Part shown: one piece after another, positions 57,760-64,000 of the stretch
How the letters are laid out: the number at the start of each line of letters is the position of its first letter
Position numbering within the stretch: the first letter of the stretch is position 1
The notes under the pieces: model-generated
The model's input: the letters and a program-made list of their open reading frames with translations, nothing else
The model's database searches: none
What the model was told of the DNA's origin: nothing
Program-made: the position numbers and the translations under genes
Origin: Candidatus Syntrophocurvum alkaliphilum
Lineage (GTDB): Bacteria; Bacillota; Syntrophomonadia; Syntrophomonadales; Syntrophomonadaceae
Direction of reading: 5' to 3'
Length of the DNA: 64,000 nucleotides
NCBI RefSeq assembly: GCF_009734445.1
Contig: NZ_CP046457.1
Coordinates: forward strand, 496,001-560,000

Positions 57760-57839
57760 ATATTTTAAAGATATAAAAAAGGTATATAAATACGTTTGTG
57801 GTATTTTAAAGTAGTATATTTTTTAAGGGGTGCGTTGAT

Positions 57840-59066
57840 ATTAACAGGCGAAATATTATTGTTAGTTTAGATGTAGGTACTAGTTCGATTAAAGCTACCC
57901 TTGGTGAAGTTGGTCAAGCAAAAGATGTTAGCATATTAGGGATTTCACAAGTGCCTTCATTAGGTCTAAGAAAAGGTAATATAGTTGATATAGAAAGCAC
58001 CGCTAAATCTATTGATACATGTCTAAATGATTTAGAAAGACTGACAGGTACACCTATTGATAAAGCAATAATAGGGTTTTCAGGTGCAAGTGTTTATGCA
58101 CTAAATAATCATGCAGTAGTTGCTGTTGGCAATCCAACTTATGAAATAACAAAAGATGATAAAGAAAGAGTGCTTCAATCAGCTCGAAATATGGCATTGC
58201 CACCAGATAAAACAATTGTACAAACCATAGAAAGGCAGTATATAGTTGATGGTTATGATGGAGTAAAAGATCCAGTCGGAATGGTAGGGAGTAGGTTAGA
58301 AGTTGAAGTAGTTATAATAATTGCAACTACTGCTGCTATACAAAACCTACAAAGAAGTATCAATAGAATTAATTTAGATATTGATAACTTAGTATATACT
58401 CCCTTATTAACAGCAGAATCTGTACTTACACCTACAGAAAAAGAAATGGGTGTTGTGATTGTAGATATTGGTGGAGGAACTACAAATGTAACTGTTTTTG
58501 AGCAAGGAAGTATGTCAACAACTACCGTTTTGCCTGTTGGTGGTGAGTTTGTAACAAAAGATATTGCAATAATTCTTAGAACATCAATTGAAGAAGCCAA
58601 TAGGGTGAAAGAACGCTATGGTGTAGCCTCTACTGAATTGGCCAAAACAGATGTACTTATAGATATACATAATTTACAAGGTAGTGATGTTAAACAAGTT
58701 AATCAGTATATGGTTGCAGAAATTATTTATGCTAGAATTGAAGAATTAGCACAATTAATTTATGAAGAACTTCAAGTAGCAGGGGTTATAGATAAACTTC
58801 CTGGTGGAATAGTCTTATCTGGTGGAGGAGCCCAACTAACAGGTATAGTAGAAGTTTTAGAAGAACTTCTTGAGTTGCCAGTACGGTTAGGTATTCCCGA
58901 AAATATTAGAGGAGTTCCTACTGATTTTAATAAACCACAGAATGCTGTAGTGCTAGGAGCATTAAATTATAAAGTTAACCAATTAGGTTCAGAAGTAGAG
59001 TTGAATTATAGCCAGGAGAGTTTACTTGATAAAATTATTTACTGGTTTAAAGATCTATTTAGATAG
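57840..59066 (+). CDS. ftsA: Cell division protein FtsA, apparent ATT start
   Basis: A 408-residue actin-like protein that tethers FtsZ to the membrane. The first phosphate loop VSLDVGTSSIKATLGE, IVDIGGGTTNVTVFEQG, LSGGGAQLTGI and the 1C-domain region are present. The C-terminus (LLDKIIYWFKDLFR) is the amphipathic membrane-targeting helix. The homologous N-terminus begins NRRNIIVSLDVG, but no ATG, GTG or TTG is in frame between the stop at 57807 and a GTG at 57951, and starting there would lose the phosphate loop. ATT at 57840 has AAGGGGTG 7 bases upstream and gives normal length, so I take it as the start. Confidence 0.88.
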   Translation: MNRRNIIVSLDVGTSSIKATLGEVGQAKDVSILGISQVPSLGLRKGNIVDIESTAKSIDTCLNDLERLTGTPIDKAIIGFSGASVYALNNHAVVAVGNPTYEITKDDKERVLQSARNMALPPDKTIVQTIERQYIVDGYDGVKDPVGMVGSRLEVEVVIIIATTAAIQNLQRSINRINLDIDNLVYTPLLTAESVLTPTEKEMGVVIVDIGGGTTNVTVFEQGSMSTTTVLPVGGEFVTKDIAIILRTSIEEANRVKERYGVASTELAKTDVLIDIHNLQGSDVKQVNQYMVAEIIYARIEELAQLIYEELQVAGVIDKLPGGIVLSGGGAQLTGIVEVLEELLELPVRLGIPENIRGVPTDFNKPQNAVVLGALNYKVNQLGSEVELNYSQESLLDKIIYWFKDLFR

Positions 59067-59086: not shown

Positions 59087-60151
59087 ATGCCATTAGACTT
59101 TGATGTAGAAATGCAACAGTTCGCTGATATTAAAGTTGTTGGAGTAGGTGGTGGGGGCAGTAATGCCGTTAATAGAATGATAGAAGCAGGTTTAAAAGGT
59201 GTGGAATTTATTGCTATTAATACTGATTCACAGGCATTATTCCTATCAAAAGCAGAGAAAAAAATACAAGTTGGTGAGAAACTAACTAAAGGTTTGGGAG
59301 CAGGGGCTGATCCTGACGTTGGAAAAAATGCAGCAGAAGAAAGTATAGAAGAAATTAAAAAATCAATACAAGGTGCAGATATGGTATTTGTTACTGCTGG
59401 TATGGGTGGAGGAACTGGAACTGGTGGAGCTCCAGTTATTGCAAGTATTGCTAGAGAATTAGGGGCTTTAACAGTTGGTGTTGTAACTAAGCCATTTACG
59501 TTTGAGGGGAGGAAGAGAAACCTTCAAGCTGAAAAAGGTACACAAGAACTACGTACAGAAGTTGATAGTTTAATTACTATACCAAATGACAGATTATTAC
59601 AAGTAGTCGATAAACATACAGCATTCAATGATGCATTTAGAATAGCAGATGATATACTGCGACAAGGTGTTCAAGGAATATCAGATCTTATAGCTATACC
59701 AGGGGTTATAAATTGTGATTTTGCAGATGTACAAACAGTAATGCAAAGTACTGGCTCAGCATTAATGGGTATAGGAAAAGCCAATGGAGAAAATAGAGCA
59801 GCAGAAGCTGCAAGGATGGCTATATCTAGCCCTCTTCTAGAAACATCTATAGAAGGAGCACAAGGAGTTCTATTTAACATAAGTGGTGGTAATGATCTGA
59901 CTTTATTTGAGATTAATGAAGCTGCAGAAATAATACATCAAGCCGCAGATATAGAAGCTAATATTATATTTGGAGCTAATATAGATGAAAACTTAAATGA
60001 TGAAGTTAGAGTAACGGTAATAGCCACTGGGTTTAATTCGGAAAATGATAAACAACATGATCTTCCAACTAAAAGTAAAGGCTTAGATTCTCCTCCAAGC
60101 TTTGTAGATAAAAGTGATTTAGAAATACCTCCATTTCTAAGAAGAAAATAA
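59087..60151 (+). CDS. ftsZ: Cell division protein FtsZ
   Basis: A 354-residue tubulin-like GTPase. The nucleotide loops [24 protein letters not shown] and the tubulin signature [15 protein letters not shown] are present, with the synergy loop residues in [11 protein letters not shown]. The short linker ends in the conserved [12 protein letters not shown] tail, which binds FtsA. It assembles the Z ring. ATG lies 20 bases after ftsA behind AAGGAGGT. It ends the division unit before a strong terminator. Confidence 0.98.
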
Positions 60152-63638: not shown

Positions 63639-63667
63639 AAAAGTCCTGTTTATCAGGACTTTTTTTA
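63639..63667 (+). terminator. Terminator after spoIIR
   Basis: AAAAGTCCTG, loop TTTAT, CAGGACTTTTTTT: a strong hairpin with T-run ending the sporulation cluster. Confidence 0.94.
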
Positions 63668-63702
63668 TGTTAAACTTTTTCAAAAGGGTATTGAGGTTAA
63701 AA

Positions 63703-64000
63703 ATGAGCAAGAAAAAATCTACGGTTCAGCTAAACTGGGAAACGAAAAATAAGCAAATAACAAATAGCCAACAATTACTAAAGGATATTGAATTTGTACA
63801 ACCTAATCCTATAATTCTTGATCAAGGAATGATAGTTGATTTTAAAAATGATTACTTTAAACATTCTAAACAAAAAACAAATAAACTAATTAAAGGGGAT
63901 AATTTATCAGTAATAAATGCATTAATAAACCAAAAATATAGCCAAAAAATTGACTTAATATATCTTGACCCACCTTATTTTAGCAATATGGATTATACAT
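63703..64000 (+). CDS. Site-specific DNA methyltransferase, 5' part (cut by window end)
   Basis: The first 99 residues of a gene continuing past the window; ATG 63703 has TTGAGGT upstream. KGDNLSVINAL followed by KIDLIYLDPPYFSNMDYT is the SAM-site/catalytic arrangement of amino-methyltransferases of the N6-adenine/N4-cytosine class with the DPPY tetrad, as in type III Mod and type II beta-class enzymes. The first ~60 residues (KKKSTVQLNWETKNK) are charged and unfamiliar. It could belong to a restriction-modification or other defence system; nothing beyond is visible. Confidence 0.8.
   Translation, partial: MSKKKSTVQLNWETKNKQITNSQQLLKDIEFVQPNPIILDQGMIVDFKNDYFKHSKQKTNKLIKGDNLSVINALINQKYSQKIDLIYLDPPYFSNMDYT

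Follow-up and report, generated by a model that had tools for sequence, protein, structure and literature searches.

Which codon starts ftsA in Candidatus Syntrophocurvum alkaliphilum? In the window analyzed here (the whole stretch of 64,000 nucleotides), the frame that encodes the conserved FtsA N-terminus follows a TAA stop (57807-57809) and stays open to 59066. The codons after the TAA are AGT AGT ATA TTT TTT AAG GGG TGC GTT GAT ATT AAC AGG CGA AAT ATT ATT GTT. Direct reading bears out the original prediction that this frame contains no ATG, GTG or TTG between the stop at 57807 and the GTG at 57951, which lies inside the fold, and that ATT at 57840, with AAGGGGTG 7 bases upstream, yields a normal 408-residue FtsA.

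The ftsA reading frame and its leader

The NCBIfam FtsA model TIGR01174 (cut-off 175.85 bits) matches the ATT-initiated protein with 361 bits over residues 6-377, covering positions 1-371 of 371 in the profile, and the full-length match together with the adjacent ftsZ at 59087 identifies the gene as ftsA. Because the profile aligns from residue 6 and solved FtsA structures from residue 4, initiation at ATT gives the protein a normal N-terminus. No canonical codon before residue 38 allows a full protein, and a start at this first canonical codon was rejected given that it would remove roughly 32 positions from the beginning of the FtsA model, among them LDVGTSSIK, the first nucleotide-binding motif. 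The TTG at 57835 and the GTG at 57830 are off the ftsA frame, closing after 11 and 2 codons, respectively. The genome (2,360,781 bp, one contig) has a single copy of ftsA; a second copy was rejected, as the other matches in the genome are weaker and, elsewhere, represent a 715-aa protein and MreB/PilM-like frames. Positions 63667-63999 of the window hold the beginning of a reading frame that is cut by the window end and contains LIYLDPPYFSNMDYT, which resembles the motif of restriction-modification DNA methyltransferases.

Table 1. Features of the ftsA region, in coordinates of the window.
Feature	Position	Strand	Details and basis
Sigma-H-like promoter (predicted), AAAGGTATA-N11-GTGGTATTT	57778..57806	+	starts 62 nt 5' of ATT; conservation, resemblance to Bacillus consensus
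SD-like AAGGGGTG	57825..57832	+	7 nt 5' of ATT; conserved AAGGRGTG, near-fixed spacing
ftsA start codon ATT	57840..57842	+	ATT/ATC in 48/49 family ftsA, ATA in 0; no upstream canonical in-frame start in the window
ftsA coding sequence	57840..59066	+	408 aa and stop; TIGR01174 match, solved FtsA structures
GTG, first canonical in-frame codon	57951..57953	+	residue 38; rejected as start
ftsZ	59087..60151	+	ATG start, SD AAGGAGGT (-12.5 kcal/mol); comparison gene

The Shine-Dalgarno (SD) sequence of ftsA stands at a proper spacing and forms a duplex of -9.8 kcal/mol with the 16S tail of the same genome. Across the family it reads AAGGRGTG, with 8-11 nt, mostly 9, from the last core G to the ATT or ATC. 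Farther upstream, about 62 nt before the ATT, the element AAAGGAATA-N11-GTGGTATTT is conserved in nearly all genomes of the family, and its outgroup counterpart, AAAGGGAAA-N11-GTTGAATTT, appears to fit the sigma-H consensus of Bacillus (RNAGGAWWW-N11/12-RNNGAATWW); the family has GTAT in place of the GAAT found in the outgroups and in this consensus. The consensus is matched at 13 of 15 positions in the window, mostly at 14 of 15 in the family and at up to 15 of 15 in outgroups. Since 13 matches are also attained by shuffled sequences at the 95th percentile, support for a sigma-H-like element comes from its conservation. If used, the predicted promoter would produce a leader of about 30 nt containing just the SD and the AUU. 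An RNA element or structure at the ftsA start was rejected, given the lack of an Rfam match at the start and leader and the absence of a stable structure in the leader, which folds no better than its shuffles (z of +0.8 to +1.0).

Conservation and origin of the start in Syntrophomonadaceae

The survey covered 54 genomes of Syntrophomonadaceae, and ftsA was found in 49 of these, which represent about 21 genera; the counts given below are those of genomes, which are mutually related. The codon at the homologous site is ATT in 38 of the 49 genomes, ATC in 10 and ATA in none; the one exception is a divergent metagenome-assembled genome (G068), which has ACA at the site and a GTG start before it. 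Judging from this comparison, ATT or ATC in 48 of the 49 genes is far beyond chance. If the site were merely a conserved isoleucine, ATA would be expected there, considering that it accounts for 654 of the 1751 isoleucine codons (about 37%) in the rest of the same genes, and none of the 48 has it; the probability of such an absence is about 4e-5 if each genus is represented by a single sequence and 1e-10 when all sequences are treated as independent. The start-codon A and the core G positions of the SD vary as little as the best-conserved downstream codons, whereas position -2 is random. Because ATT/ATC is kept in nearly all family members across about 21 genera, it is no error and probably a selected feature. 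The original prediction had named ATG, GTG or TTG at this site in sister genomes as what would speak against it; with the site occupied as described, the AUU start is not refuted and gains strong support.

Upstream of the site, as far back as the in-frame stop, a canonical codon is absent in 32 of the 49 genomes; 7 have one only at a great distance, and 10 have one at -3 to -9. Three of these 10 combine it with a workable SD spacing (ATG in G003 and G011, TTG in G012), and these codons may be used there instead of ATT/ATC; in 5 others (three genomes of the Syntrophomonas wolfei group, G016 and G013), the canonical codon overlaps the SD or adjoins it. In the S. wolfei group (L010, L011 and L055), an in-frame GTG lies within the SD and ATT is kept 9 nt downstream; annotation is likely to place the ftsA start at this GTG.

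The search for ftsA covered all 63 genomes of the class, and outside the family none of the 44 outgroup loci starts at ATT, all having TTG, GTG or ATG. Within the same class and order, one family (f2) has GTG and another (f3) ATG or GTG; in other classes TTG predominates, the remaining loci having GTG or ATG. A 100/99 branch of the FtsA tree separates the family from the outgroup side, which is wholly canonical, and ATC is nested within ATT several times; G013 and G068 are long-branch partial rows, the placement of which is unreliable. The most parsimonious scenario appears to be a single replacement of a canonical ancestral start (TTG, GTG or ATG) at the base of the family, with subsequent changes almost solely between AUU and AUC.

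Comparison with infC, ftsZ and the rest of the genome

The start of infC is AUU, AUC or AUA, and IF3 regulates its own gene. At 30 infC loci from the class and the phylum (L119-L148), the start is ATT or ATC in all cases, followed by AGY, and never ATA; the scan was anchored on ATH-AG, so that the following bases are imposed by the search and ATA was permitted. Thus, the method detects known AUU/AUC starts. Upstream of infC there is an extended SD, mostly of -15 to -16 kcal/mol (about -15.6). In 29 family genomes, ftsZ starts at ATG (13) or TTG (16), the start with the best SD having been chosen where several were possible, and its SD averages -12.8 kcal/mol vs -9.8 for ftsA.

In a 464-kb sample (about 20% of the genome, 429 coding ORFs), a near-cognate codon with an SD and a coding signal before the first canonical codon was found only in ftsA, infC and three weaker candidates, so AUU is no general start in this genome, and generally relaxed start use was rejected as an explanation. 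One of the weaker candidates is a TRAP transporter fused permease (L202:15685-17694; genome position 855685) with an apparent ATC start behind AGGGAGGGGAG; the ATC is not conserved, and given that the examined relatives have GTG, ATG or TTG, it is specific to this genome, if real. In a DUF2284-like ORF (L201:15644-16180), AGAAAGGAAAG is followed by an ATT, and a canonical start is lacking over 51 codons.

Alternative explanations and implications

We consider it almost certain that the AUU start of ftsA is real. Given that FtsA outside the class starts mostly at TTG, itself a weak codon, a real AUU/AUC start could have been retained passively because it suits a low need for FtsA, with neither IF3 feedback nor regulation, and the switch could then be drift within tolerated weakness. 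This explanation has some appeal and still appears unlikely: a single change would make ATG available everywhere, yet 48 of 49 genomes keep ATT or ATC, and under drift, ATA or canonical codons ought to occur at the site as well. That a canonical start is used after all, depending on the species (the GTG within the SD, the GTG at 57951 or codons 5-6), is very improbable. Ten genomes do have ATG, GTG or TTG at -3 to -9, including the GTG at -9 of the S. wolfei group, and in 19 a canonical codon follows the site at a distance of 5-6 codons, but these codons shift position among genomes while the ATT and its SD do not, the GTG at -9 overlaps the SD itself, the downstream codons lack a properly spaced SD, and the window offers no canonical alternative before residue 38.

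Termination-reinitiation, in which a GTG mini-ORF of 2-4 codons overlapping the SD ends beside the ATT and hands the ribosome over, is hardly credible even though the stop lies at -4 or +2 relative to ATT in 29 of the 41 genomes with GTG in the SD. This GTG sits inside the sole SD and is therefore without an SD of its own, the +2 stop results from ATT followed by an AAN/AGN codon, a pattern also present in infC, and the mini-ORF is missing in genera 3 and 12 and is in a different frame in genus 21; the survey of stop positions thus lends no support to such coupling. The chance of a sequence error, with the TTG at 57835 joined to ftsA via a base lost in GAAAT, is negligible. This TTG stands at short spacing after the SD, and one extra A would join the frames; however, independent genomes have CGAAAT or AGGAAC without the extra base and without that TTG, and keep the ATT, which rules this possibility out, and the assembly of Ca. 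Syntrophocurvum alkaliphilum B(2M) is Illumina-polished nanopore (PMC7005122). Taken together, the conserved site and SD, the canonical outgroups and the infC control make sequencing error, frameshift and internal start very unlikely.

The explanation that we favor, and regard as reasonably probable in its entirety, is that selection maintains a weak, probably IF3-limited AUU/AUC start, by which FtsA stays scarce relative to FtsZ. The sequence evidence covers the position of the start, its conservation, the lack of alternatives and the contrast with ftsZ and the outgroups; from it, we infer that the AAGGRGUG SD would position the ribosome on the AUU, or the AUC in some lineages, where initiator fMet-tRNA would start translation. 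AUU is a very inefficient start codon, and given that the ftsA SD (-9.8 kcal/mol) is weaker than that of infC, expression driven by AUU would be very low. By analogy with infC, pcnB and sigR, IF3 would discriminate against the ftsA start; selection would keep this start weak, and with synthesis low and IF3-limited, the ftsA-ftsZ message would give much less FtsA than FtsZ, which presumably is the purpose of the arrangement. The original suggestion of IF3 sensitivity and of FtsA kept low relative to FtsZ is plausible in view of the ATT/ATC starts of infC and the ATG/TTG starts of ftsZ with their stronger SD.

Like infC, ftsA has a near-cognate AUH start that is kept over a large taxonomic distance, with an SD upstream and ATA absent in the examined genomes; unlike infC, which is self-regulating and has an extended SD, it has a moderate SD and no feedback loop of its own. 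The list of known cases in the original prediction, infC and pcnB, was short, given the GTC start of sigR (PMC5472188) and the starts of cvfC1 (AUU) and ccpN (AUA) (PMC13009471). The pcnB gene of Escherichia coli starts at AUU (Binns and Masters 2002, as cited in PMC13009471) and resembles ftsA in that the AUU start limits the synthesis of one protein, although it is another gene in another phylum. Among tested cases, the nearest precedent for a near-cognate start that sets a protein ratio is sigR-rsrA of Streptomyces: the conserved, genus-wide GTC start of sigR, misannotated by gene finders, is repressed by IF3, which thereby fixes the ratio of the two partners (PMC5472188). It differs from ftsA in the codon, in the SD (AGGAGGTG), in serving a sigma/anti-sigma pair rather than FtsA/FtsZ and in having been tested experimentally (PMC5472188). 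The starts of cvfC1 and ccpN in Staphylococcus and Bacillus, detected by ribosome profiling and reporters (PMC13009471), are likewise conserved near-cognate starts behind an SD in Firmicutes but have an extended SD, and the products are regulators or unknown proteins. In poor medium, near-cognate starts of S. aureus give about 10% of the AUG output (PMC13009471).

A literature search for an AUU/ATT start of ftsA, with most subscription journals outside its coverage, found no paper, and ftsA is a new gene among the few with known near-cognate starts (infC, pcnB, sigR, ccpN and cvfC1). To our knowledge, very few bacterial genes are known to have such starts. Standard gene finders accept only ATG, GTG and TTG and are accordingly expected to shorten, lengthen or miss ftsA in Syntrophomonadaceae. 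A bolder and doubtful extension is that FtsA synthesis reads out the initiation machinery (IF3 vs 30S subunits and initiator tRNA), so that FtsA would couple division to the translational state or growth rate, as a checkpoint established when the family arose. The retention of AUU/AUC by a core division gene across an entire family of syntrophs implies that scarce FtsA has been selected for, and with its single codon the ftsA start would connect initiation fidelity to the divisome in a way that can be tested directly.
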